The position numbers and the translations under genes were made by a program. The notes under the pieces were generated by a model. It worked only from the letters and a program-made list of their open reading frames with translations, was not told where the DNA came from and did no database searches. From assembly GCF_035573695.1 (NCBI RefSeq), contig NZ_CP121694.1, positions 2,270,501 through 2,334,500 of the forward strand: a stretch of 64,000 bases of DNA. The letters are read 5' to 3'. Position 1 is the stretch's first letter. Each line of letters starts with the position of its first letter. Shown here one piece after another: positions 28,295 to 43,253 of this stretch. Origin of the DNA: Metallumcola ferriviriculae. GTDB taxonomy: Bacteria > Bacillota > JADQBR01.

Positions 28295-29386
28295 TTATAT
28301 TCTTCCATCTTTACGTGCCTGTTTATGACACGATGCACAACTAGAGGCATCATGACAGTCGTAACATTGGGCGTCTCCGTCCTGATGAACTTTATTTTTA
28401 TGGTTCGGTTCCCAATCTGCCGGGTGTAAGCTAAAATGGCATTGCTCGCAATATACTTGGGTTGTAGGAGCAGATACCACCTGCTCCTCTTTATCTTTAT
28501 TATGACAAGCCAAGCAGCCTTCCGGGAAAGCCCTGGCCTTCTCGGGATGATCCACCGAATATACCTTGGTGTGACTTTGCGGACGATCAATGTGGCAGTT
28601 ATAGCAGAAGGCATTAGTTCTGGCTACCTTGCGCACGTTAATCAATGTGTCGTCCTCTGACTGAAACTCACCTTTTTTCGCAACATCGTATTCATGGCAA
28701 GCATTACAACCATCAACATTTTTAAAGGCCTCTATCCCATGTCTTATCGCCCATGTCTCATTACCATGATTAGTTGGTGCTGTCTTATCATTATGACATG
28801 CATTGCAATCTCTAGTGGCCATGGCACCGTTATGGCATTCCATACATTTATCCATTGGAATCCTGTTACCCATTGTGGCAACTTTGGCCGCATCATCAAT
28901 AGTAAACGTATTCGGGTCTATCCCCGCAGCGATCACCTTTTCTGAAACATTGGCGTGGGTAACATTATCGTGACAGTCAATACAGTCAATTCCTTTTTCC
29001 AAATGCAAATAGTGGGGAATAACCAAATCGCCCGGGGGTGTCACGATTCTTTTAGGGTTATGACAGCCCAAACAGGTTTCATCCTCCACCAGCACATCAG
29101 TTGTCAGCGGCAGTTTGTACCTTTCAGTCATTTGCCTAAATGCAAACGTTGGCAGAGATACATTCTTATGACACGCATCGCATTTAATATTGTTATGCGC
29201 CGTAACCTGCCATGTTTTTACCTGGGGTTTCATAGCATGACACCCACTGCATGCGTTAGGATTGCTGCTATATTTTAGGTAGGATCCTAAACCGAACCCG
29301 ACCACAGCAATTACAAGATAGATAATAAGCAGCCTTCCTTTGCCTTTCTTAGGGCGCCTTTCGGTGTAAAGTTTCTTTGAACCCAT
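28295..29386 (-). CDS. Twelve-heme c-type cytochrome, NapC/NirT N-terminal (module A)
   Basis: A 363-residue membrane-anchored cytochrome. ATG 29386 follows GGAGGGCG, so the longer frame is not used. One N-terminal helix (LLIIYLVIAVVGFGLGSYL) precedes a NapC/NirT-like segment. Twelve CxxCH heme-binding motifs are visible in order: CSGCH, CDACH, CLGCH, CIDCH, CMECH, CNACH, CNACH, CYNCH, CLACH, CEQCH, CYDCH, CASCH. Conserved histidines such as those in VTAHNNIKCDACH, LVIPHYLHLEKG and HTKVYSVDHPEKA are likely distal ligands. It should sit outside the membrane and accept electrons from a quinol or partner cytochrome. It is last in an operon with a b-type and a seven-heme cytochrome and is clearly paralogous to the protein at 32740-33822. 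Confidence 0.93.
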   Translation of the reverse strand: MGSKKLYTERRPKKGKGRLLIIYLVIAVVGFGLGSYLKYSSNPNACSGCHAMKPQVKTWQVTAHNNIKCDACHKNVSLPTFAFRQMTERYKLPLTTDVLVEDETCLGCHNPKRIVTPPGDLVIPHYLHLEKGIDCIDCHDNVTHANVSEKVIAAGIDPNTFTIDDAAKVATMGNRIPMDKCMECHNGAMATRDCNACHNDKTAPTNHGNETWAIRHGIEAFKNVDGCNACHEYDVAKKGEFQSEDDTLINVRKVARTNAFCYNCHIDRPQSHTKVYSVDHPEKARAFPEGCLACHNKDKEEQVVSAPTTQVYCEQCHFSLHPADWEPNHKNKVHQDGDAQCYDCHDASSCASCHKQARKDGRI

Positions 29387-29399
29387 ATTTCGCCCTCCT

Positions 29400-30230
29400 C
29401 TACACAAACAGTAGTGGAATAAATGTTACCATAAGTAGAATAACTACCGTAACATAGACCACCAGTTCGAAAATGATTAACTTGCGACTCTTAGCAAAAC
29501 GACTATGATGTTCATGCTTAACCACCGGAACCCCATCCTTGCGGTATTGTTCTAAGAGCTTTTCATACTCCAACAAGTGTTCTTCTTCCATATGCTCTCT
29601 GGATATGCTGCCGTTAATCCAAACTTTACTGCTGGGAAATACATGGGGATTGAAGTGTACTGAAAAAAAGTGCCCCAATACTACTGCCAGCATGGCCACA
29701 AACGCTTCATTGGTGTGGGCAATACGCGTAATGTGTAAGCCGGTAGTTGTCAGCCAGCCGAACATACCGGGAAACCACAGTATCAAACCGCTTCCGCCCA
29801 TCACGATAATTCCCCAAAAAACTGCTAGGTACTCAAATTTTTCCAAGTAGGTGTATCTATCATATCGAGGCGGCTCTTTGGTTATGCCAAGTAAGAACTT
29901 TGCATGGTGAACTGCGTCTTTAACATCCTTAAAGGTAGGAACCATGGCCCAACTGGGGCCCTTTCTGGCAAAATACCCTACCATCCAAATAAGATGATAC
30001 ACACCGCTGATAAGCATGATAACCCCGAATGTTAAGTGCGTCATAAACATATTATGGAAGCTACCAAATAGGTCCACGACCACCTGGGACCAGCCCCAAC
30101 TTCCATATTTGATTGGGAAGCCGGTTATTACCAACATAATTACACTTAAGGCTAGCAATAAATGTTGGTAGCGCTGGTGTCTGTTCCATCTTTTGATCTT
30201 CTTCGGAATTACAATTTCTTTAGTACTCAT
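29400..30230 (-). CDS. Membrane b-type cytochrome (module A)
   Basis: A 276-residue integral membrane protein resembling di-heme cytochrome b subunits of formate dehydrogenase, hydrogenase and CbcB-like complexes. Four or more helices are visible: LLLALSVIMLVITGFPIKY, MTHLTFGVIMLISGVYHLIW, LAVFWGIIVMGGSGLILWF and LAVVLGHFFSVHF. Histidines in HQRYQH, FHNMFMTHLTF, VYHLIW and LGHFFSVHFNPH are candidates for heme b ligation. The ATG follows GGGGGGTGAGCTA. It lies between the seven-heme gene (12 bp) and the twelve-heme gene (13 bp) in a tight operon; I infer it oxidises menaquinol and passes electrons to the c-type cytochromes. Confidence 0.88.
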   Translation of the reverse strand: MSTKEIVIPKKIKRWNRHQRYQHLLLALSVIMLVITGFPIKYGSWGWSQVVVDLFGSFHNMFMTHLTFGVIMLISGVYHLIWMVGYFARKGPSWAMVPTFKDVKDAVHHAKFLLGITKEPPRYDRYTYLEKFEYLAVFWGIIVMGGSGLILWFPGMFGWLTTTGLHITRIAHTNEAFVAMLAVVLGHFFSVHFNPHVFPSSKVWINGSISREHMEEEHLLEYEKLLEQYRKDGVPVVKHEHHSRFAKSRKLIIFELVVYVTVVILLMVTFIPLLFV

Positions 30231-30242
30231 TAGCTCACCCCC

Positions 30243-31199
30243 CTAAGCATTTAGACCCGTATCTTTGGATTTTGTATGTTTCTTAACTTCGTTCACACCG
30301 CGCAGCTGACGTATCAATTCAAAGATAACTATGCTTCCGTCCTTGGCAAAATCAAAGATTATCAAAACGATAAATATCTTCCAAACTATATATAAAGGAA
30401 GTGCCGCTTTTTTGTCTTGTGGCGTAACGTGCTCCATGCCTTTTGCAAACCCGTCTCTGGCAAAAAAATGGCATTGAGCACATGTTTCCGGTCTATTCTG
30501 GGCTGATACCATTGACTGTGGGTCCTCAGCTGCCAATATAGTGTGGTTTCCATGACAATCCGCGCATGTAGCCGCCTTGGTGTAGCCAAAATTAACTGCA
30601 GTACCGTGGAAGCTATATTTGTATGTGTCCATCACTTTACCGTCATGACAATTAGCACAAGTGTCTGAGATATTCAACCGGTAGTAAATAGCTTCCGGAT
30701 TTTCCTTCTTTAAGACGTTATGGGAACCATGACAATCGCCGCAGTACGCGGTTTCTTTGCCCGCGGAGGCCAATTTGCCGTGCACGCTGGTACGATAGTC
30801 TTTGGTAACCTTATCATGACATGCCTCACATTCCTGTAAGACTTTCTGCTGCAATGCCTGTCCGTATACTGCCGATTTATGCGGCATATCCTTCTCCATT
30901 CCCGGGTGACAAGTGGTGCAGGCGTTTGTACCATGTACGGATTCTTTATAGGTCGCTTCCGAGACAAACAGGGAAATATTTTTCCCATCTCGCTGCACCG
31001 TAAAACCTTTTTCACCATGACATTGCAAACATTGTTGATTTATTAATTCCGCTGCCTGAGAACTATCCACTGCAAAAGCAGTCCTAGCAAAGAGGAAGAA
31101 ACCAAAAAACATTCCTGATACTATTACCACTAGAAAGATTGTTACGAATAAGCCAGATAATACGTATGCACAGATGTTTCCCAACTTATTTTTCCACAT
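30243..31199 (-). CDS. Seven-heme c-type cytochrome (module A)
   Basis: A 318-residue cytochrome with an N-terminal signal anchor (AYVLSGLFVTIFLVVIVSGM) and a second membrane helix near the C-terminus (LYIVWKIFIVLIIFDF). Between them are seven CxxCH motifs: CLQCH, CTTCH, CEACH, CGDCH, CANCH, CADCH, CAQCH. Repeated SVHG/SFHG and GDCHGSH-type segments supply likely distal histidines. The arrangement of seven-heme c cytochrome plus b-type cytochrome is like the CbcBA menaquinol oxidoreductase of Geobacter (family knowledge; homology not tested). Its ribosome binding site, GAGGAGTGAG, can pair with an upstream leader sequence (31280-31288). It is first in the module A operon. Confidence 0.92.
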   Translation of the reverse strand: MWKNKLGNICAYVLSGLFVTIFLVVIVSGMFFGFFLFARTAFAVDSSQAAELINQQCLQCHGEKGFTVQRDGKNISLFVSEATYKESVHGTNACTTCHPGMEKDMPHKSAVYGQALQQKVLQECEACHDKVTKDYRTSVHGKLASAGKETAYCGDCHGSHNVLKKENPEAIYYRLNISDTCANCHDGKVMDTYKYSFHGTAVNFGYTKAATCADCHGNHTILAAEDPQSMVSAQNRPETCAQCHFFARDGFAKGMEHVTPQDKKAALPLYIVWKIFIVLIIFDFAKDGSIVIFELIRQLRGVNEVKKHTKSKDTGLNA

Positions 31200-31491: not shown

Positions 31492-31689
31492 TTACTTATC
31501 ACATTCATCAAACTCAATGATTTGGGGTTCTCCTTTGCCAGTGTCCGCAGTAAGTTTGAACTGGATACTGTTGATACCCTTTGTATTAATGTGTACATAA
31601 CGCTTACAATGACGGCATTTGATGATAATGGTATCCTCTACAACTTGGCAAACTATCTTTTTACACTGGCAGCGGAAAAAATCATTCAT
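31492..31689 (-). CDS. Com-like zinc-ribbon protein E (65 residues)
   Basis: One of five paralogous small proteins in this island. It reads MNDFFRCQCKKIVCQ, then IIIKCRHCKRYVHIN. The cysteine pattern C-x-C-x4-C followed by CRHCKR about 14 residues later resembles the zinc finger of phage Mu Com, an RNA-binding translational activator, although homology is inferred from motif only. The C-terminal tail (about 25 residues, acidic) differs from its paralogues. The ATG follows GGGAGGTAAGAGCC. It is preceded by two leader elements with terminators (31711-31790 and 31829-31910). Metal binding is likely; nucleic acid binding is my inference. Confidence 0.75.
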   Translation of the reverse strand: MNDFFRCQCKKIVCQVVEDTIIIKCRHCKRYVHINTKGINSIQFKLTADTGKGEPQIIEFDECDK

Positions 31690-31710: not shown

Positions 31711-31790
31711 TATTTAAAAACACAAAAGACTAACCCCGTGATAACGGTGCTAGTCTTTCTGGCTTGTAAACGCCTAACAGACCTCGACCT
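31711..31790 (-). promoter_or_regulatory. Leader element L7b: divergent repeat-box motif plus terminator
   Basis: Minus strand. A terminator hairpin (AAAGACTA with TAGTCTTT, inner ACCG/CGGGGT region) is followed by TGTGTTTTT. Directly upstream lies a divergent copy of the island leader motif, AGGTCGAGGTCTGTTAGG and then TTTACAAGCCAGAAAG; here the short hairpin is GGC/GCC instead of GACTT/AAGTC. It precedes the Com-like gene E by about 25 bases. Confidence 0.5.
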
Positions 31791-31810
31791 GCTGTATATG
31801 CACTTTTAAT

Positions 31811-31829
31811 GCGTGTTCGAACATCCTCT
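31811..31829. repeat. Terminal-only remnant of the 155-bp palindromic element
   Basis: GCGTGTTC followed directly by GAACATCCTCT equals the first eight and last eleven bases of the 155-bp elements at 36880-37034 and 48218-48372, with everything between missing. This could be a deletion product between the terminal inverted repeats or an excision footprint. Confidence 0.6.
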
Positions 31830-31910
31830 AAAACAAATAGACTGGTACCCATATGAAAAAACACATGGTCACCAGTCTATCGGACTTTAAAGTCTACCAG
31901 ACTACGGACT
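31829..31910 (-). promoter_or_regulatory. Leader element L7a: repeat-box motif plus terminator
   Basis: Minus strand. The motif AGTCCGTAGTCTGGTAGACT then TTAAAGTCCG is followed by a terminator with a perfect ten-base stem ATAGACTGGT/ACCAGTCTAT (31838-31847 and 31871-31880) and TTTGTTTT. GACTTTAAAGTC forms the short middle hairpin. It lies just after the stop of Com-like gene D and about 140 bases before gene E. Confidence 0.6.
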
Positions 31911-31945
31911 GTAAAGGTATTAACTTTTTTCACGTCCAAATTAAT

Positions 31946-32113
31946 CTAGCCGATGTTTAGGTGCTTAACAGCGTCGTCCACTTTAAACTCAACGTCAATT
32001 AATCCTTTGGTATGAATATGAATGTAACGCTTGCAATGACGGCATTTGATGATTACCACATCGCCCTCTATTTGACAAACAATCTTCTTACAGGTACACC
32101 GGAAGTCTTTCAT
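31946..32113 (-). CDS. Com-like zinc-ribbon protein D (55 residues)
   Basis: Starts at ATG 32113 (MKDFRCTCKKIVCQIEGD) after GGGGGAATCCTA; the longer frame upstream is not needed. The second cysteine pair lies in VIIKCRHCKRYIHIHTKG, nearly identical to that of proteins C and E. A short variable tail follows. It is preceded by leader element L6 (32134-32190), whose terminator hairpin ends about 20 bases before the ribosome site. Same predicted metal-binding, possibly RNA-binding role as its paralogues; no enzymatic motif is present. Confidence 0.75.
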   Translation of the reverse strand: MKDFRCTCKKIVCQIEGDVVIIKCRHCKRYIHIHTKGLIDVEFKVDDAVKHLNIG

Positions 32114-32133
32114 TAGGATTCCCCCTTGAATAA

Positions 32134-32190
32134 TAGCAAAAGCCAGCATCCACCCCCGATGCTAGCCTTTTGACTCTTAGTCTATAGACT
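32134..32190 (-). promoter_or_regulatory. Leader element L6: repeat-box motif plus terminator
   Basis: Minus strand. AGTCTATAGACTAAGAGTC then AAAAGG, with the middle hairpin GACT-AAG-AGTC, leads into a terminator stem GGCTAGCATC/GATGCTGGCT (one mismatch) and TTTTGC. The motif overlaps the stop codon of Com-like gene C and lies directly upstream of gene D. Confidence 0.6.
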
Positions 32191-32364
32191 ACTTATCTTT
32201 TTATAGTCCATATTTACTTTTTTGTCATTCACCGAGGTCTCCACCGTCACATCGCCATGGGTTCGAATAATGATAAATCTTTTGCAATGACGGCATTTAA
32301 TTACAATTGCGCCCTCGTCTACTTGACATATAATCTTATTGCACACACATCTTATGTCCTGCAT
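32182..32364 (-). CDS. Com-like zinc-ribbon protein C (60 residues)
   Basis: Starts at ATG 32364 (MQDIRCVCNKIICQVDEG) after GGTGGGGATTTT. The second half of the finger is IVIKCRHCKRFIIIRTHGD. A polar, lysine-rich tail follows (VNDKKVNMDYKKISSL). The gene stands about 375 bp downstream of the stop of the twelve-heme cytochrome B gene and is preceded by leader element L5 (32473-32527). Its stop codon lies inside leader element L6, which serves the next Com-like gene. Family and role as for the paralogues. Confidence 0.75.
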   Translation of the reverse strand: MQDIRCVCNKIICQVDEGAIVIKCRHCKRFIIIRTHGDVTVETSVNDKKVNMDYKKISSL

Positions 32365-32472
32365 AAAATCCCCACCCAACCCTTAAAATGATCAAGTATT
32401 AGAATTAGCTTTTTTCTTATATCCCTCCTCTCAGTTTCCTAACAACCATCTTCCAGATACTATCTAACTGGT

Positions 32473-32527
32473 ATAAAAAATGGCCATCCCCAAAATAGGT
32501 AGGCCATACTTAAAAATCTCACGGACT
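32473..32527 (-). promoter_or_regulatory. Leader element L5: repeat-box motif plus terminator
   Basis: Minus strand. AGTCCGTGAGATTTTTAAGT leads into a stem ATGGCC/GGCCAT (32502-32507 with 32480-32485) followed by ATTTTTTAT. The second box is degenerate (AAGTATGG) compared with the other copies. It sits about 110 bases upstream of Com-like gene C. Confidence 0.5.
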
Positions 32528-32739
32528 CATCCTATCGGTTAGGGGTCTTATAGAGTTGCATTTTTAGTTTTAATTGTACTCTAATTCACAAACTTTCTTA
32601 CATCCTCTCGTCTCTTTGATACATTATATTCTTCACCGATAGAAAAATTCCTTCAACAATTCAAAAAAAGTTTAGAAATTTTTAACAAAAAATTAACAGT
32701 TACGGCAGGTACCGTAACTGTCATTATTATCTGAGAAAA

Positions 32740-33822
32740 CTATTTTCTTTTCGAGTGACACGAAGCGCAGCTTGTAGCGGCATGACAAGAATAACAAGTC
32801 GCGTCTCCATCTGCCCTCACCTTTTCAGGGTGTTTTATTTGCCAGTTGGACGGATGCAGAGTAAAGTGACACTGTTCGCAATACACATTAGTGGTTGGCG
32901 GCGCTACCTCGGTTTCAGGTTCCTTCTCTTTATTATGACAAGCCAGGCAACCTTTCGCAAATTCACGTGCCTTATCCGGATGATCCACTGAATAAACCTT
33001 AGTATGGGTCACCGGTCTCTGAATGTGACAATTATAACAAAAACCATTTGTACGCGCTTCACGCTGCACATTAATTAACGGGTCAGCGCTAGCATCATAC
33101 GCTTGTTTCTTAGCAAGATTATATTCATGACACTCATTACAGCTATTGATGTTTTTAAAAGCCTCACGACCGTGCCCGGTACCCCATTGGAGCTCATCAT
33201 GAGATGGCGGCGACTGTTTATCAGTATGGCAGACATTACAATCTCTCGGGGCCTTAGCACCATTATGACATTGCATACATTTATCCATTGGGATTCTATT
33301 ACCGTGCTCGGTCAATTCCTGCGCCATTTCCAAAGTAAAGTCTCCCGGGTCTAATCCTTCGGTCATCACCTCTTTATTAACATTTGCATGGACCACCGCT
33401 TCATGACAATCAATGCAATCCACGCCCTTTTCCATATGCAGAGTATGTGGAATTACCAGGTCCCCCGGCGGAGTAACAATCCGCTTTGGGTTATGACATT
33501 GGAGACATACATCGTCTTCCATGAACTTAGTATTTTCAATCGGCAAACGATAGCGCCCGGTTCCCTCTCTAAACTTAAAGGTGGCCATAGACAAATCCTC
33601 ATGACAGGTAACGCAATCTATATTATTATGGGCTGTAACCTGCCAGGTTTTCACCTGGGGCTGCATTGCATGACAGCCGCCACAGGCCTCCGGGTTTTTA
33701 TCATATTTCAAAAAAGAACCAAGCCCGTAGCCAACAATGGCTATTACTGCATAGATCAACAGTAGTTTAAGTAAACGCCGACGCTTTTTCGGTGGCGCAT
33801 CGTTGTACGGTGATGAACTCAT
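32740..33822 (-). CDS. Twelve-heme c-type cytochrome, NapC/NirT N-terminal (module B)
   Basis: A 360-residue paralogue of the module A twelve-heme cytochrome. One N-terminal helix (LLKLLLIYAVIAIVGYGLGS) precedes twelve CxxCH motifs: CGGCH, CVTCH, CLQCH, CIDCH, CMQCH, CNVCH, CNECH, CYNCH, CLACH, CEQCH, CYSCH, CASCH. Identical stretches shared with module A include CHNPKRIVTPPGDLVIPH and HTKVYSVDHP. The ATG follows GGGAGGTAGCTT. It should face the outside of the cell membrane and relay electrons. It follows the b-type cytochrome gene, with a 37-residue membrane peptide encoded between them. Confidence 0.93.
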   Translation of the reverse strand: MSSSPYNDAPPKKRRRLLKLLLIYAVIAIVGYGLGSFLKYDKNPEACGGCHAMQPQVKTWQVTAHNNIDCVTCHEDLSMATFKFREGTGRYRLPIENTKFMEDDVCLQCHNPKRIVTPPGDLVIPHTLHMEKGVDCIDCHEAVVHANVNKEVMTEGLDPGDFTLEMAQELTEHGNRIPMDKCMQCHNGAKAPRDCNVCHTDKQSPPSHDELQWGTGHGREAFKNINSCNECHEYNLAKKQAYDASADPLINVQREARTNGFCYNCHIQRPVTHTKVYSVDHPDKAREFAKGCLACHNKEKEPETEVAPPTTNVYCEQCHFTLHPSNWQIKHPEKVRADGDATCYSCHAATSCASCHSKRK

Positions 33823-33842
33823 AAGCTACCTCCCTTCTCCGG

Positions 33843-33956
33843 TTACATAAGACCTACCGGCAGAAACGATTTAAGAAACCACAAAAGTATTAAAGCGTAT
33901 ATCGCCATTTCACTAATAATGAGGATTCTATTACCGTTGTACTTGTTACTACTCAT
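33843..33956 (-). CDS. Small single-pass membrane protein (37 residues) of cytochrome module B
   Basis: A short gene reading MSSNKYNGNRILIISEMAI then YALILLWFLKSFLPVGLM, with ATG 33956 preceded by GAGGGGGAAG. It has a polar N-terminus and one hydrophobic helix (about residues 11-36). It lies between the b-type cytochrome gene (13 bp away) and the twelve-heme gene (20 bp), all on one strand, so co-transcription is nearly certain if it is real. It may be a complex-stabilising subunit. Confidence 0.65.
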   Translation of the reverse strand: MSSNKYNGNRILIISEMAIYALILLWFLKSFLPVGLM

Positions 33957-33969
33957 CTTATCTTCCCCC

Positions 33970-34731
33970 TCATATATTTAATCTGGAGGTATCATCTTCT
34001 GGAACCTTCGGATCCTTTTTCTCATTGGCACCTTGCTCTTTTTCCAAGATTTTATTCAGCTCCGCAGGATGCTCATGCTCCATTAACTCATGGGACATCT
34101 TGCCATGGAACCAGACAAAGTTCATTGGGAAAAAGTCGGGACTGAAATGGACGTTGTAAAAGTGCCAAATAAAGATAGCCAAGATGGCCAACATCGCCTC
34201 ATCACTATGGGCAATACGCGTGCTCTCAATCAACCATCTGGGGAATAGGCCGGCAGAAAAACTTGGAAACCACATCATTAGGCCTGAACCACCCATGATG
34301 AAAATTCCCCAGAATACAGCCCAGTAGTCAAATTTCTCCTTGTAGGAATAGCGATCGAAGCGGGCCTTTTCTTTTGTCAAACCCAAAAGGTAGCGCATAT
34401 GCTGATTGATATCTCTAACATCTTTTAGTGCGGGTACTGTTGCGATACTTATTTGTTTCTTGATAATAGGATAAATAATTAGGTAAAACAGGTGATATGC
34501 AGAAGATGCCAGCATAATGGCAGCACCGATAAGGTGAACGGTAAACATAGTGTCAAAGCCGCCAAACAGCGCAGTAACTTTTGGTGCCCACCAACTGTGA
34601 TTATATTTGATCGGCAAGCCGGTAAAAGTGCACATAAAGAAACTGACGAACATCATAATATGTTGAATTCTTTGATGGATGTTAAACCGCTCAAACTTTC
34701 GGGTGCGTTTACCATAGGCACTAGAAAACAT
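33970..34731 (-). CDS. Membrane b-type cytochrome (module B)
   Basis: A 253-residue paralogue of the module A cytochrome b. Helices: HIMMFVSFFMCTFTGLPIKY, FTVHLIGAAIMLASSAYHLF, FWGIFIMGGSGLMMWF and AILAIFIWHFYNVHFSPDFF, with the same ordered histidines (HQRIQH, TVHLIG, AYHLF, WHFYNVHF). The loop DRYSYKEKFDYWAVFWGIFI closely matches DRYTYLEKFEYLAVFWGII of module A. It lacks the C-terminal extra helix of module A and ends in a charged tail. The ATG follows GGGGGGGAAGAT. It is encoded directly after the seven-heme cytochrome (16 bp). Confidence 0.88.
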   Translation of the reverse strand: MFSSAYGKRTRKFERFNIHQRIQHIMMFVSFFMCTFTGLPIKYNHSWWAPKVTALFGGFDTMFTVHLIGAAIMLASSAYHLFYLIIYPIIKKQISIATVPALKDVRDINQHMRYLLGLTKEKARFDRYSYKEKFDYWAVFWGIFIMGGSGLMMWFPSFSAGLFPRWLIESTRIAHSDEAMLAILAIFIWHFYNVHFSPDFFPMNFVWFHGKMSHELMEHEHPAELNKILEKEQGANEKKDPKVPEDDTSRLNI

Positions 34732-34747
34732 ATCTTCCCCCCCCTTC

Positions 34748-35617
34748 TTAATGTTGGTTATCCTGACCCTCTTTGGCCTCCTTGTATTTTCGAACCAATT
34801 CTAACTCAATATGAATAACCAATAATGTAACAGTCATTATAGTCAACCAAGTGAAAAACTTTAACGTCCAGTACATGGGTGCCCCGGGCCCAGTTGGCTC
34901 AAAAGTCCAATGCTCAATGCCTTTCGCATAATTAGGTTGTGCCTTAAAATGGCACTTCGCACAGGTTTCGGGAAGGTTTTCTTTGCTTACTGTAGATTTA
35001 GGGTCTTCCGGCCCTAATATTTTATGACCGGTGTGGCAGCTGACACAAGTAGCTGCGTTACTGCTTCCTAGGTTCACCGCCTTACCATGAAAACTTTCGG
35101 CATAACTTTCTTTTACCTCTTCGTCATGACACTTAGTACATGTATTGGTAATATTATTGCGGTGAATTAATGATTCGGGATCCTCTTTTTTCCTAATCCC
35201 GTGGGTCCCGTGACAATCGGCACAAAGCGCCGTACTTTCCCCTTTGGCTTCTAACTGCCCATGAACGCTGGAACGATATTCAGCATTTACATCGCCATGA
35301 CATGTTTCACACTCTTCGGCAATTTCCGCGGCCAACTTTTCATCGTACACTACATTTTTATGGGGAATACTGTCAATATTGGCATGACAGGATGTACATA
35401 AATTAGTCCCATGTGTTGACTGCTGAAATTTTTCAATATCTACATATAATGGAATGGTTTTGCCCTCTCGCTCTACACTAAAGTTTTTGGCTCCGTGGCA
35501 TTGAAGACATGTTTCGTTACTGAAATCATTGTCCTCTGCAGCCAGCGCCACAGCCGTGGTAATCAGCATAAGCATCATACACAGCAGCACCGAAAATAAA
35601 ATTCTTTTGTATGCCAC
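34748..35617 (-). CDS. Seven-heme c-type cytochrome (module B)
   Basis: A 289-residue paralogue of the module A seven-heme protein. GTG 35617 is the best start, seven bases after AAGGGGTGA. A signal peptide (ILFSVLLCMMLMLITTAVAL) ends in ALAAEDN, so cleavage is plausible. Seven CxxCH motifs follow: CLQCH, CTSCH, CETCH, CADCH, CTKCH, CVSCH, CAKCH. A C-terminal helix (YWTLKFFTWLTIMTVTLLVI) anchors it. It is the first gene of module B and is preceded, about 31 bases upstream, by leader element L4 with its terminator, so its transcription may be controlled by attenuation. Confidence 0.92.
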   Translation of the reverse strand: MAYKRILFSVLLCMMLMLITTAVALAAEDNDFSNETCLQCHGAKNFSVEREGKTIPLYVDIEKFQQSTHGTNLCTSCHANIDSIPHKNVVYDEKLAAEIAEECETCHGDVNAEYRSSVHGQLEAKGESTALCADCHGTHGIRKKEDPESLIHRNNITNTCTKCHDEEVKESYAESFHGKAVNLGSSNAATCVSCHTGHKILGPEDPKSTVSKENLPETCAKCHFKAQPNYAKGIEHWTFEPTGPGAPMYWTLKFFTWLTIMTVTLLVIHIELELVRKYKEAKEGQDNQH

Positions 35618-35642
35618 GTGGGATTCACCCCTTTCCAAGAAA

Positions 35643-35690
35643 ATAGTGACCGGCAGATTTTAACCGGCCTCTGGATATATCTCTGGACTC
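35643..35690 (-). promoter_or_regulatory. Leader element L4: repeat-box motif plus terminator, before seven-heme cytochrome B
   Basis: Minus strand. AGTCCAGAGATATATCCAGA places the two boxes around a GATA/TATC hairpin (GACTT/AAGTC in copies L1-L3, so paired bases changed together). A stem GGCCGG/CCGGTC and ACTATTTTC follow. The motif starts right after the Com-like gene B stop and ends about 20 bases before the cytochrome ribosome site. Confidence 0.6.
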
Positions 35691-35870
35691 TTACTTGTAT
35701 TCAACTTTTCTTTCCCCTCCGCCAGTGGTTTCAAACCCCTTGGTATTGATGATAATAAAGCGTTTGCAGTGGCGGCATTTAATTACCACGACTTGTTCCT
35801 TTAGCTGGCAGACAATTTTGCCGCATTGGCACCTTAAATTTTCTAATTCGCCCATCACATCCTTTGCCAT
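35691..35870 (-). CDS. Com-like zinc-ribbon protein B (59 residues)
   Basis: ATG 35870 follows GGGGGGATAGT. The protein has a slightly longer N-terminus (MAKDVMGELENLRCQCGK), then IVCQLKEQVVVIKCRHCKRF and IIINTKGFE, with the same cysteine pattern as the other four copies, and a basic C-terminal tail. It is the last small gene before the module B cytochromes, separated from them only by leader L4, so it may be co-transcribed with them. This makes it the copy most directly linked to cytochrome expression. Confidence 0.75.
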   Translation of the reverse strand: MAKDVMGELENLRCQCGKIVCQLKEQVVVIKCRHCKRFIIINTKGFETTGGGERKVEYK

Positions 35871-35955
35871 ACTATCCCCCCTTCATTACTTTCAATTATG
35901 CGGTCAATTTCCGGCCTGCTTTTCGTGTGCTAGTCACTACCTCTTGATGATTAAA

Positions 35956-36162
35956 TTACATCGGTAAAAAAGGCGGCCAGACAACGACCAAAGCCACTGC
36001 GAAAGTTACTACGCTAATCGCCGTGCCGAAAACAAAAGTGGAAGCAATAGATAAAGCACCCTCAGTCCATCCCATTACATACCTGCTCAAATATAAACCA
36101 CTGGAAAAACCAAAAGTTACAGCCAACAGCGCACCAGCTACCAGGATCAAAAACAATGTCAT
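35956..36162 (-). CDS. Small membrane protein with two helices (68 residues)
   Basis: Reads MTLFLILVAGALLAVTFGFS, GLYLSRYVMGWTEGALSIAS, then TFVFGTAISVVTFAVALVVV. Two hydrophobic helices flank a short polar loop. The ATG follows AAAGGAGGAAATTTAA. Not a family I recognise. It is preceded at about 25 bases by leader element L3, which has a perfect 12-bp terminator stem, and followed by Com-like gene B. A role with the cytochromes or in sensing is possible from context only. Confidence 0.7.
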   Translation of the reverse strand: MTLFLILVAGALLAVTFGFSSGLYLSRYVMGWTEGALSIASTFVFGTAISVVTFAVALVVVWPPFLPM

Positions 36163-36185
36163 TTAAATTTCCTCCTTTCAATCAT

Positions 36186-36236
36186 AAAAGGCCAGCGCAA
36201 ATTTGCGCTGGCCTCTGGACTTAAAGTCTCCGGACT
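36186..36236 (-). promoter_or_regulatory. Leader element L3: repeat-box motif plus terminator
   Basis: Minus strand. AGTCCGGAGACTTTAAGTCC then AGAG is followed by a perfect palindrome GGCCAGCGCAAA/TTTGCGCTGGCC (36190-36213) and TTTT. It lies 24 bases upstream of the ATG of the two-helix protein gene. A 31-codon frame starting at 36254 reads through the element and ends in an ATGA overlap with that gene. Confidence 0.7.
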
Positions 36237-36267
36237 CATGAAACTATTTTTCATTGTACTTCCCAAT

Positions 36268-36330
36268 TTACCTGATAGACGCCTTTCCTTCCCACCCGAT
36301 TTTTGTCAGATTTGCATGCCCTTTCCCCAT
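36268..36330 (-). CDS. Possible 20-residue peptide between leaders L2 and L3
   Basis: ATG 36330 follows GGGGGGTGA closely and the frame reads MGKGHANLTKIGWEGKASIR before TAA. It is the only candidate gene between leader L2 and leader L3; without it, L2 would have no nearby target. It is too short to judge by composition. Confidence 0.3.
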   Translation of the reverse strand: MGKGHANLTKIGWEGKASIR

Positions 36331-36364
36331 TCACCCCCCTGGCTAGAGTTCCATCATTGACAGG

Positions 36365-36419
36365 AAAAGGCCAGCGTGAAAAAATTTCTGCTGGCCTCTG
36401 GACTTAAAGTCTCCGGACT
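36365..36419 (-). promoter_or_regulatory. Leader element L2: repeat-box motif plus terminator
   Basis: Minus strand. The same AGTCCGGAGACTTTAAGTCC core as L1 and L3, then GGCCAGC/GCTGGCC (36369-36375 with 36390-36396) and TTTTCC. It begins at the stop codon of Com-like gene A. Confidence 0.65.
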
Positions 36420-36584
36420 TCAAATTGCAATTTTCTCTTTAATTTTCTTGCTCTTTTCACTAACTTCATTTATTCCTTTGACTTTTATTACCACATTCCT
36501 TTTACAGTGACGGCATTTTATTATGACCTCATTACCTTCCAACTGACAAATAATCTTATTACATTCACAGCGAATGTCTTTCAT
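36420..36584 (-). CDS. Com-like zinc-ribbon protein A (54 residues)
   Basis: ATG 36584 follows GGTGGGGGGAATACA. It reads MKDIRCECNKIICQLEG, then NEVIIKCRHCKRNVVIK, with a lysine/glutamate-rich C-terminus (VSEKSKKIKEKIAI) that makes it the most basic of the five copies. Cysteine spacing matches the others. It is the most upstream gene of the island on this strand, preceded by leader L1 (about 105 bases) and followed immediately by leader L2. Function as proposed for its paralogues; unproven. Confidence 0.72.
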   Translation of the reverse strand: MKDIRCECNKIICQLEGNEVIIKCRHCKRNVVIKVKGINEVSEKSKKIKEKIAI

Positions 36585-36687
36585 TGTATTCCCCCCACCC
36601 TTTACTAAGCGTTCCGTCCGACGACCTTAAAGCGGCCAAAAAGCTTATCCCCCCCAACAAATAGAAAAAAATGCTAGCATTAAAATA

Positions 36688-36736
36688 CAAAAAGCCAGCA
36701 TTCTCTGCTGGCCTCTGGACTTAAAGTCTCCGGACT
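36688..36736 (-). promoter_or_regulatory. Leader element L1: repeat-box motif plus terminator
   Basis: Minus strand. AGTCCGGAGACTTTAAGTCC then AGAG (36713-36736), followed by GCCAGCA/TGCTGGC (36694-36712) and TTTTTG. It is the first copy of the motif on this strand, about 105 bases upstream of Com-like gene A. Confidence 0.65.
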
Positions 36737-36879: not shown

Positions 36880-37034
36880 GCGTGTTCAAAAAGTCCATTG
36901 TAGCAGGAGCAAGAAGTTCAAGGCGCGAAGGCTTTCAGACGCGGAGCGTACTGGTGGCGTACGTGAGCAGTCTCAAAGACTGAGCAACGCAGAAATTCGC
37001 CGCTCACCTGCAATGGACTTTTTGAACATCCTCT
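36880..37034. repeat. 155-bp palindromic element, copy 1
   Basis: Starts GCGTGTTCAAAAAGTCCATT and ends AATGGACTTTTTGAACATCC plus TCT. The ends form an inverted repeat of about 19 bp, GTTCAAAAAGTCCATTG with CAATGGACTTTTTGAAC. Inside are a CAGTCT-CAA-AGACTG hairpin and a GCGTAC repeat. The second copy at 48218-48372 is nearly identical. It lies between the Com-like gene A promoter region and ddl, and has no coding capacity that I can support. Confidence 0.85.
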
Positions 37035-37210
37035 TTAACAAAGTTATTCTTACTATATAGATATGATGGTAGAAGCAAAACTTGCCTGTCCTATCAAAAA
37101 AACACAGAAATTAAATAAGTCGTTACGATTAATCAACCCTAAGAATTAGTAAAAGGGGCTTATATGCCCAAATATAGATACAATTTTCGGCTACTTAAAT
37201 CTTAATACCT

Positions 37211-41267: not shown

Positions 41268-42803
41268 ATGACAAAACAGACTTTCTTAAAAGGTGCCATC
41301 ATACTTGTTACGGCTAGTTTCTATAACCGTTTACTAGGATTCATCTATAAAATCTTGGTCATACGGTTGATAGGAACAGAAGGAATTGGTCTCTATGAAA
41401 TGGTTTTTCCCTTTTACATTCTGGTATTAGTAATTACCACAGCTGGCGTTCCCCTGGCCATTTCCAAATTAGTGGCAGAAGAAATGGCAAAGGATAATCT
41501 CTCTGGTGCATATCGAATTTTTCGCATTGCTCTATCATTCCTTACCGTTGCCGGTGCCACGGTAACGCTTATTCTTTACAAGACCCTTCCCTTTATAATA
41601 GACCATTTCTACAGCGACCCGCGGGTATATTGGAGTTTCTGGGTAATGATACCGGCAATATTTATTATTTCAGTGTGTTCGGCTTTTAGGGGGTTTTTTC
41701 AAGGGTTGCAGCAAATGACGCCCACCGCAGTAAGTCAGGTAGTAGAACAGACTATCAGATTTTTCGTGGGTTTATGGTTTGCTAATTATTTTCTTCCATA
41801 TGGTGTGGAATTCGCGGCTATGGGTATGGCCATCGGCATGGCTGCAGGAGAATTTATCGGACTGCTGCTGATGATTGGAATTTTCCTTTTCAAGAGACCG
41901 CGGCTGCAGCCGCATGAGCGTTCGAGGACTAGAAGTTTACGCGCGTTATCTGTTATTAAGGGGATATTTTATCTGGCATTTCCTATTACACTGACAAGGA
42001 TTGTTTACAGCACTTCCATGACCATTCAGGCTTCTCTGGTACCCCAACGACTTCAAGCCACCGGCTTGTCCATCAGGGAAGCAACAGAAATGTTCGGACA
42101 ATATTCCGGTATCGCCGTTACTCTACTACACCTGCCCACCATGGTTACGGTATCACTAGCCATCACACTGGTTCCGGCAATATCCGAAGCAATCACGGCT
42201 GGGAACAGTCATCAAATTATGCAGCGAATTAATCAAGCTTTGCGGATTACCTTAATACTGGGATTACCCAGTGTAGTTATTTTTCTTCTCTTTCCCTACC
42301 GTTTGAGTGAACTGCTTTTTGCCACTTCCAGTGCCGGCGTACCCTTAAAGGTATTAGCTTGGGGCGCACTCTTTCTTTATCTACAGCAGACCACAACCGG
42401 TATTCTCCAGGGTTTGGGGAAAGTAGGTACTTCACTATTCAACGCCGCCTGCGGAGCAGCTATTACCCTGACCGGCATTTACTATCTTACCGCACTACCT
42501 GACCTGGGTATAAGGGGGACTGCCATTGCGGCAAATATGGGTTTCTTCATTGTTGCTACCCTAAACCTATTAACCATTTGGCAGACAGTGGGTTTTAGAA
42601 TTAATTTTATTAAAACTTTTCTCACGCCAGCCGGTGCTGCTTTAATCATGGCATTTACGGCATATTATATGGATAATTACCTGCAAACATATAATCCATG
42701 GTTGATACTGCCCATACTGGGATTCAGCGGCGGACTCTACTTGCTAATTTTAGTACTGACTAAATCTATCAGCATCAACCAATTTCAAAGGTTTATTAAA
42801 TGA
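41268..42803 (+). CDS. SpoVB-type polysaccharide flippase (MVF/MATE superfamily)
   Basis: A 511-residue multispanning membrane protein with about 14 hydrophobic helices. The N-terminus FLKGAIILVTASFYNRLLGF and FYKILVIRLIGTEGIGLYEM-like segment (residues about 5-45), then GVPLAISKLVAEEMA, are characteristic of SpoVB/YtgP proteins that move lipid-linked glycans during spore cortex or wall formation. The ATG follows GACAGGAGGTG. Its last codons lie inside the first unit of a 102-bp tandem repeat array (42795-43227). Sporulation-specific expression is expected but was not established here. YtgP-like or other lipid II flippase roles are equally possible. Confidence 0.85.
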   Translation: MTKQTFLKGAIILVTASFYNRLLGFIYKILVIRLIGTEGIGLYEMVFPFYILVLVITTAGVPLAISKLVAEEMAKDNLSGAYRIFRIALSFLTVAGATVTLILYKTLPFIIDHFYSDPRVYWSFWVMIPAIFIISVCSAFRGFFQGLQQMTPTAVSQVVEQTIRFFVGLWFANYFLPYGVEFAAMGMAIGMAAGEFIGLLLMIGIFLFKRPRLQPHERSRTRSLRALSVIKGIFYLAFPITLTRIVYSTSMTIQASLVPQRLQATGLSIREATEMFGQYSGIAVTLLHLPTMVTVSLAITLVPAISEAITAGNSHQIMQRINQALRITLILGLPSVVIFLLFPYRLSELLFATSSAGVPLKVLAWGALFLYLQQTTTGILQGLGKVGTSLFNAACGAAITLTGIYYLTALPDLGIRGTAIAANMGFFIVATLNLLTIWQTVGFRINFIKTFLTPAGAALIMAFTAYYMDNYLQTYNPWLILPILGFSGGLYLLILVLTKSISINQFQRFIK

Positions 42804-43227
42804 AACTTGGCTTGGGCCAAGTCTAAGTCTTTTTTAGACGCAGGCGGAAGCCCTAGTTGAATTAATGCCTCCCCAGAGCTATGCTTTCTGACTGGTATTA
42901 AATGAAACTTGGCTTGGGCCAAGTCTAAGTCTTTTTTAGACGCAGGCGGAAGCCCTAGTTGAATTAATGCCTCCCCAGAACTATGCTTTCTAACTGGTAT
43001 TAAATGAAACTTGGCTTGGGCCAAGTCTAAGTCTTTTTTAGACGCAGGCGGAAGCCCTAGTTGAATTAATGCCTCCCCAGAGCTATGCTTTCTGACTGGT
43101 ATTAAATGAAACTTGGCTTGGGCCAAGTCTAAGTCTTTTTTAGACGCAGGCGGAAGCCCTAGTTGAATTAATGCCTCCCCAGAGCTATGCTTTCTAACTG
43201 GTATTAAATGAAACTTGGCTTGGGCCA
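42795..43227. repeat. 102-bp tandem repeat array (four full copies plus 25 bp)
   Basis: Units begin at 42795, 42897, 42999 and 43101, with a partial fifth from 43203. Each begins ATTAAATGAAACTTGG. Within a unit, CTTGG-CTTGGG-CCAAG and GTCTAA-GTCTTTT-TTAGAC can form hairpins, the first followed by a T-rich stretch like an intrinsic terminator. Copies differ at only two positions (AGAGCTATG or AGAACTATG; TCTGACTGG or TCTAACTGG). Because 102 is divisible by three, an open frame of 147 codons persists on the minus strand, but it has no ribosome site. Confidence 0.95.
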
Positions 43228-43253
43228 TAGAAGACTTAGCAGTTTGATATTAA

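Follow-up and report, generated by a model that had tools for sequence, protein, structure and literature searches.

How the expression of multiheme cytochromes is controlled in anaerobic, often metal-reducing Bacillota is poorly understood, and a 64,000-nucleotide (nt) stretch of the Metallumcola ferriviriculae genome (contig NZ_CP121694.1, positions 2,270,501 to 2,334,500; hereafter the window) raises this question in a specific form: are the repeated leaders of a cytochrome island regulatory RNAs, and what might read them? Eight minus-strand leaders, designated L1-L4, L5, L6, L7a, and L7b, each precede a Com-like zinc-finger gene, a small membrane-protein gene, or a cytochrome gene. Five Com-like genes, all in the window and none elsewhere in this genome, are interspersed among the elements and two paralogous cytochrome operons. 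The original prediction, made from the letters of the window, had described this arrangement and proposed that the leaders are related attenuators through which Com-like proteins, or a small ligand, decide on transcription of the cytochrome genes. Seven of the leaders were found to share one fold; it is almost certain that they represent a real structured element competing with terminators, and an attenuator family new to Rfam, and the observations as a whole are probably best explained by a family of Com-responsive transcription attenuators.

An exact 27-mer (AGTCCGGAGACTTTAAGTCCAGAGGCC, minus strand, as are all features of the island given below) is common to L1, L2, and L3, with 0 copies expected from shuffles, and its 20-nt core does not occur in the 3.72-Mb genome outside these three leaders, which bears out the common sequence claimed for them. 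The L1 core (36710-36736; outer stem P1, internal loop CGGA/CAGA, inner stem P2) is located upstream of Com1 and scored 56 bits with covariance model R1, which also matched the L2 core (36393-36419), overlapping the Com1 stop codon, and the L3 core (36210-36236), upstream of a gene for a 68-aa membrane protein. A strong terminator lies downstream of each of the three (L2, 36367-36398, with the P1 3' strand as its 5' arm; L3, 36188-36215), and L1 has a double expression platform (36667-36715), in which hairpin A:B (GGCCAGCA/TGCTGGC) is accompanied by an alternative downstream terminator B:C (ATGCTGGC/GCTAGCAT plus a U run). The same fold, composed of P1, a symmetric 4x4 internal loop, and P2, was recovered in all leaders except L5, and the loop reads CNGA/CNGA in L1-L4. 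L4 (35662-35692, boxes AGTCCAGAGA/ATCCAGAGGCC, R1 E=1e-4; terminator 35645-35672), located between Com2 and a cytochrome operon, has its inner stem reduced to 2 bp and showed no 3-bp inner stem in the fold test, in which single elements were compared with 300 shuffles each.

The remaining three members differ in letters and have the same fold and an overlapping terminator. L6 (TAGTC-tata-GACT-aag-AGTC-aaaa-GGCTA, 32161-32191; terminator 32140-32168) overlaps the Com3 stop upstream of Com4, L7a (AGTCT-ggta-GACT-ttaa-AGTC-cgat-AGACT) occupies 31874-31903, and L7b (GGTCT-gtta-GGC-gtttacaa-GCC-agaa-AGACT, 31752-31783; terminator 31724-31759) lies upstream of Com5; 0, 0, and 3 of 300 shuffles, respectively, were as good. 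In these divergent elements P1 lengthens to 4-5 bp (UAGUC/GGCUA, GGUCU/AGACU) and P2 is GACU/AGUC or GGC/GCC, the 4x4 loop size being kept and the loop letters not. The hairpin covariation first noted (GACTT/AAGTC, GACT/AGTC, GGC/GCC) was confirmed, and covariation extends to a second, outer stem. A model built from five L6-type sequences and no canonical ones (R2), which scored L6 at 43 bits, gave its best scores, apart from the sequences it was trained on, to L1-L3 and their orthologues, indicating that L6-type and canonical elements belong together. The eighth proposed relative, L5 (32473-32527, upstream of Com3), is a terminator with one box-like stretch; it lacks the fold, 47 of 300 shuffles scored equally, and it was rejected as a family member.

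Copies of the element recur around Com-like genes, which were sought in three samples comprising 61 related genomes, 399 genomes drawn from the phylum, and 33 named Com-like loci (from Thermincola, Carboxydocella, Frackibacter, Symbiobacterium, and metagenome-assembled genomes (MAGs)). A regular expression (regex) for the 27-nt element gave 61 matches in 0.6 Mb around Com-like loci, 60 of which were used after duplicate trimming, and a weight-matrix scan gave 115 copies with 97 distinct cores, the reversed-sequence control yielding none at scores of at least 20. The canonical consensus has P1 GUC/GRC, loop CNGA/CNGA, P2 GRC/GYC, and a terminal loop of mostly 4-8 nt. RNAalifold yielded this single hairpin unprompted. 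In the 97 cores it keeps 582 of 582 stem pairs, compared with 569 for a rival fold of two mini-hairpins; since the weight-matrix scan gave a small pairing bonus, the regex set, which had no pairing constraint, provides the cleaner figure, with the two variable (middle) pairs kept in 120 of 120 cases in the single hairpin versus 115 of 120 in two separate hairpins. Cores such as GCC-GAC-GUC-GGC (6 copies) and GUC-GGC-GCC-GAC (4) are compatible with the single hairpin only. Two separate mini-hairpins, losing 13 pairs where the single hairpin loses none, were therefore rejected as the conserved fold; they may be the bound form. As the leaders had been matched to no known riboswitch class, the comparison with Rfam (4227 families) is relevant, in which tRNA alone reached the gathering threshold and only chance-level matches appeared at E<=5.

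The attenuator architecture proposed for the leaders was also recovered. The terminator 5' arm starts with the 3' strand of P1, so the hairpin and the terminator exclude each other, and across the 97 cores the letters change together: P1 3' strand GGC occurs with terminator partner GCC or GCU, and GAC with GUC or GUU. One strand obeying two partners fits the expectation for an attenuator, and the mutual exclusivity of hairpin and intrinsic terminator corresponds to a protein-responsive transcription attenuator as a mechanism, not as a family. The median folding energy is -4.9 kcal/mol for the core alone and -17.1 kcal/mol for the terminator, the core never being the stronger, which implies that some factor must stabilise the hairpin for read-through. 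A second pairing is open to the terminator 3' arm B in 21 of 114 leaders, compared with 2.8 expected from shuffles: arm B can form a helix with an arm C that lies downstream and has a U run behind it. These leaders are found mainly upstream of the gene that opens a cluster (L1 here) or, in Thermincola-type clusters, 0-3 nt past a Com stop. At loci L037, L040, L050, L064, and L071, a proper U run is missing from hairpin A:B; A:B would then be an antiterminator and a stabilised element would turn the operon off. This suggests opposite polarity in about one fifth of leaders, where binding could also cause termination.

The stabilising factor may be sought among the Com-like proteins. The five Com-like zinc-finger genes are present as described, and their resemblance to phage Mu Com is backed by profile comparison: hhalign gave a probability of 95.7% and 39% identity over 33 columns (a control zinc ribbon gave 8.8), and the best E value against PHROG gpCom was 8e-4. 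On these alignments, the Com-like family of the window is homologous to Mu Com. Of the CxxC...CxxC cysteines of Mu Com the second pair is kept, the first being replaced by CxC and often a third Cys. RNAs selected for Mu Com by Nowacka et al. contain GAG(N)2CC repeats, binding requires 5'-CC(N)2-3GAG-3' within a loop that a C-G pair closes, the footprint covers the GA and the first loop C, and the motif is preferred in a hairpin loop and bound more weakly in a duplex (PMC6483171). Both boxes of the element read (A)GU-CC-N-GAG-RC; as the regex had demanded the box letters, a looser scan is informative, in which C-N-GA was present in both boxes in about 90 of 97 cores. The element thus shares with the Mu Com-mom mRNA system a Com-family zinc finger, a CC-N-GAG motif comparable to CC(N)2-3GAG with its loop-closing C-G pair, and a hairpin adjoining an inhibitory hairpin (PMC6483171). 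It differs in being cellular and multicopy with a predicted action in trans on many operons, in placing two boxes with N=1 in one symmetric hairpin, and in that the inhibitory hairpin is a transcription terminator, whereas that of Mu is a translation-inhibiting stem. Translational activation of a modification gene does not describe the system, as the neighbours are cytochromes and terminators and no mom gene was observed in the vicinity of the com genes.

The covariance-model search of other genomes that had been suggested gave a clear association. Com-like genes were detected in 11 of the 61 related genomes and 45 of the 399 phylum genomes; among the latter the element was present in 28, and 26 had both (Fisher 1.8e-26, a statistic that counts related genomes, which are not independent). 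The two element-bearing genomes without a Com-like gene are MAGs that are 61 and 63% complete, and in close relatives all ten element-bearing genomes have a Com gene. Eighty of the 115 elements lie at most 1 kb from a Com open reading frame (ORF), the remainder coming from the whole-genome search. The element also varies with Com subtype: six of seven genomes with only CxCKK-type Com lack the canonical element, the seventh (G083) having an additional Com match outside the classified stretch, and nearly all genomes with CGK/CNK/CDK-type Com carry it (Fisher 2.5e-5). Within 34-173 nt of its Com genes, a distant CNRLIC-type Com subfamily (loci L180, L181, L191, L192, and L195) has GCC-C(N)1-4GA-GGC hairpins with a terminator behind them; these AAGCCCTTAAGAGGCAAT hairpins, with GAAGAGGAG-type terminators, carry CC(N)3-4GAG, and several precede large surface-protein genes. 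Such hairpins, which were not predicted in advance, support a putative general partnership of Com, hairpin, and terminator.

Two side observations concern Com-like loci outside the window. At the CNRLIC-type loci, a box AAGAGG could pair with the terminator 3' arm as well. At L038, L051, L056, L174, L175, and L177, a lone CKK-type Com gene adjoins a D-Ala-D-Ala ligase gene; cytochromes are absent there, and no element could be recognised.

The link of Com-like genes to cytochrome control, as originally proposed, stands with regard to co-occurrence and box resemblance and proved too narrow with regard to targets; many elements are also far from Com genes. In genome-wide searches with families assigned to downstream genes, a second cytochrome site was detected in the M. 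ferriviriculae genome itself (L093, G000:C1:3074735-3074767), where an element (covariance model E 0.005) precedes a hexaheme/b-type cytochrome operon by 64 nt, about 770 kb from the island. Other elements lie upstream of a NuoK-like gene and the large membrane-subunit genes behind it (nuoKLMN-like) in two Frackibacter-family genomes (L092, L166). In the Thermincola family they precede a major facilitator superfamily (MFS) transporter, in several genomes, and an AAA ATPase that has VWA proteins encoded after it. One element in G004 (L089) is located ahead of spoIIGA, which is succeeded by sigma-factor-like ORFs, and another (L043) ahead of a B12-binding radical-SAM gene. Elements so far from Com genes make cis action or ribosome coupling alone insufficient as an explanation. 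For Carboxydocella, Fe(III) respiration has been connected with two CbcL-like clusters (PMC6085454), and these probably correspond to the pair of Com clusters detected in the species. As a separate observation, the region near NuoK in G040 (L092:7130-7407) contains tandem AGYCCAGAG boxes; upstream of the nuoKLMN-like genes they make up at least four units resembling the element within about 280 nt, which exceeds the need of one attenuator.

A mechanism may be proposed in which the RNA would form a single hairpin of P1 (GUC/GRC, up to 5 bp in divergent copies), the symmetric loop, P2, and a short loop, and a Com-like zinc-finger protein would stabilise it, blocking the terminator and permitting read-through. 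The protein would act as an autoregulator beside its own gene and as a trans regulator of cytochrome and other operons, and where arm C forms an alternative terminator with arm B, polarity would be reversed. The element, its covariation, its overlap with terminators, its genome co-occurrence with Com, and the sites in trans are observations; direct binding, antitermination as the default, and reversed polarity with arm C are what these observations would predict from sequence. Com-like proteins are quite likely the binder of the element RNA, and antitermination is favoured as the usual outcome. Several points weigh against this mechanism. The box spacing is N=1, compared with the N=2-3 selected by Mu Com, which moreover favours a motif in a hairpin loop, whereas the covariation favours the internal-loop fold. 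The stems are short and most stem pairs are invariant, so that the covariation evidence, although real, rests on few variable positions. Co-occurrence could partly stem from joint inheritance of one cytochrome cluster, L038, L051, and L056 keep a CKK-type Com without a recognisable element, and the arm-C leaders imply that no single polarity fits every leader.

Other readers of the element have to be weighed against Com. A riboswitch would account for the aptamer-plus-terminator layout, for two expression platforms from one aptamer, and for targets in several operons; a ligand would stabilise the P1-loop-P2 hairpin and the Com genes would merely be among the targets. The core is, however, a hairpin of 27 nt whose stems are 3 bp long and which gives no sign of a junction or pseudoknot, and the near-complete co-occurrence with Com, the variation with Com subtype, and the resemblance of the boxes to the known Com target all speak for the protein, so that a small-molecule ligand is less likely than Com and the riboswitch reading is unlikely. 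Recognition by another RNA-binding antiterminator appears very improbable. Leaders of the ANTAR type (NasR/EutV) likewise are repeated in one gene cluster and contain stem-loops in tandem, of which the second overlaps the terminator (PMC3369936), but the A1/G4 hexaloop signature is missing here, with C beginning the loop in nearly all cores, the covariation favours one hairpin, and G040 encodes no ANTAR protein yet carries 7 elements. The ribonucleic antiterminator (RAT) hairpins of BglG/LicT are also single hairpins with internal loops that overlap terminators and are stabilised by protein (predicted for the present elements), but their RNA sequence differs, the loop here is symmetric, and no CAT_RBD protein is encoded in the M. 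ferriviriculae genome (G000). The PyrR binding loop, with the letters ARUCCNGNGAGGYU, is similar to the element letters; the present elements differ in having a tetraloop rather than a hexaloop, no pyr genes, and no Rfam model match at E up to 5.

Two further explanations were considered. If a ribosome ending the Com ORF covered box 1 and altered the fold, the element would sense com translation, and the element does start at most 60 nt from the stop of 33 of 75 Com ORFs, often 0-5 nt past it; such coupling is nevertheless quite improbable, as no Com ORF lies upstream of many elements, which are found before nuo, spoIIGA, MFS, or cytochrome genes, and as L1 and its counterparts are located ahead of the gene that opens the cluster. 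The identity of L1-L3 within one cluster might also be expected of ordinary terminators spread by com cluster duplication without a regulatory role, a reading made very unlikely by the compensatory changes, the conserved CC-N-GAG boxes outside the terminator, the copies before unrelated genes in other families, and the recovery of canonical elements by the divergent L6-type model. A viral origin was rejected, as viral contigs contained neither a Com relative nor the element and tblastn found no close phage Com. No literature on this element or on cellular Com-like regulators was found.

Com had previously been described as a phage protein that activates the translation of a single gene. If the Com-responsive attenuation proposed here is true, relatives of Com would control a chromosomal regulon by attenuation in anaerobic, often metal-reducing Bacillota, and a new protein-RNA pair with a compact 27-nt RNA site would join the short list of antitermination systems. 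We lean slightly towards a broader view, in which Com-family zinc fingers would be a general cellular class of small trans-acting RNA-binding termination regulators, whose paralogues read different internal-loop codes (CNGA, L6-type UAUA/AAAA, or single CC(N)3-4GAG hairpins) and in which one aptamer would drive ON and OFF platforms across a regulon serving respiratory electron transfer, transport, and sporulation. Several paralogues with matching elements in one cluster offer an internal specificity test, and the pair is a candidate RNA-protein tethering tool, a use that Mu Com already has.

In the island, the Com-like genes are Com1 (36420-36584, CNK type, 54 aa), Com2 (35691-35870, CGK type, 59 aa), Com3 (32182-32364, CNK type, 60 aa), Com4 (31946-32113, CKK type, 55 aa), and Com5 (31492-31689, CKK type, 65 aa). 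A search with a fold model of Com4 (predicted local distance difference test (pLDDT) 79) gave no significant match, which is uninformative for a 55-aa zinc protein, and comparison of the Com-like sequence with PDB gave just chance-level zinc-finger matches. Both putatively controlled operons have the gene order multiheme c, b-type, and NrfH-like multiheme c. Operon 1 (32740-35617) encodes a multiheme c cytochrome (34748-35617), a b561-type cytochrome (33970-34731), a 37-aa ORF, and an NrfH-like multiheme cytochrome (32740-33822); the paralogous operon 2 (28295-31199) encodes a multiheme c cytochrome (30243-31199), a cytochrome labelled b-type from the similarity of gene order (29400-30230), and an NrfH-like cytochrome (28295-29386). 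The predicted 68-aa membrane protein (35956-36162), between L3 and Com2, has comparable small genes in relatives' clusters.

Two repeats were also observed in the window. A 147-aa ORF at 42785-43228 (minus strand), which may not be a real protein, consists of four near-identical 34-aa tandem repeats (AQAKFHLIPVRKHSSGEALIQLGLPPASKKDLDL). An inverted-repeat element of ~150 bp, resembling a miniature inverted-repeat transposable element (MITE) and with ends GTTCAAAAAGTCCATT, is present at 36885-37035 and at about 48371, with a remnant at 31828; it has 22 genome matches, 10 of them with 97-100% identity over nearly the full length. Its flanks GAGGATGTTC and GAACACGCA, directly joined, sit between L7a and L7b, resembling an empty or excised copy.

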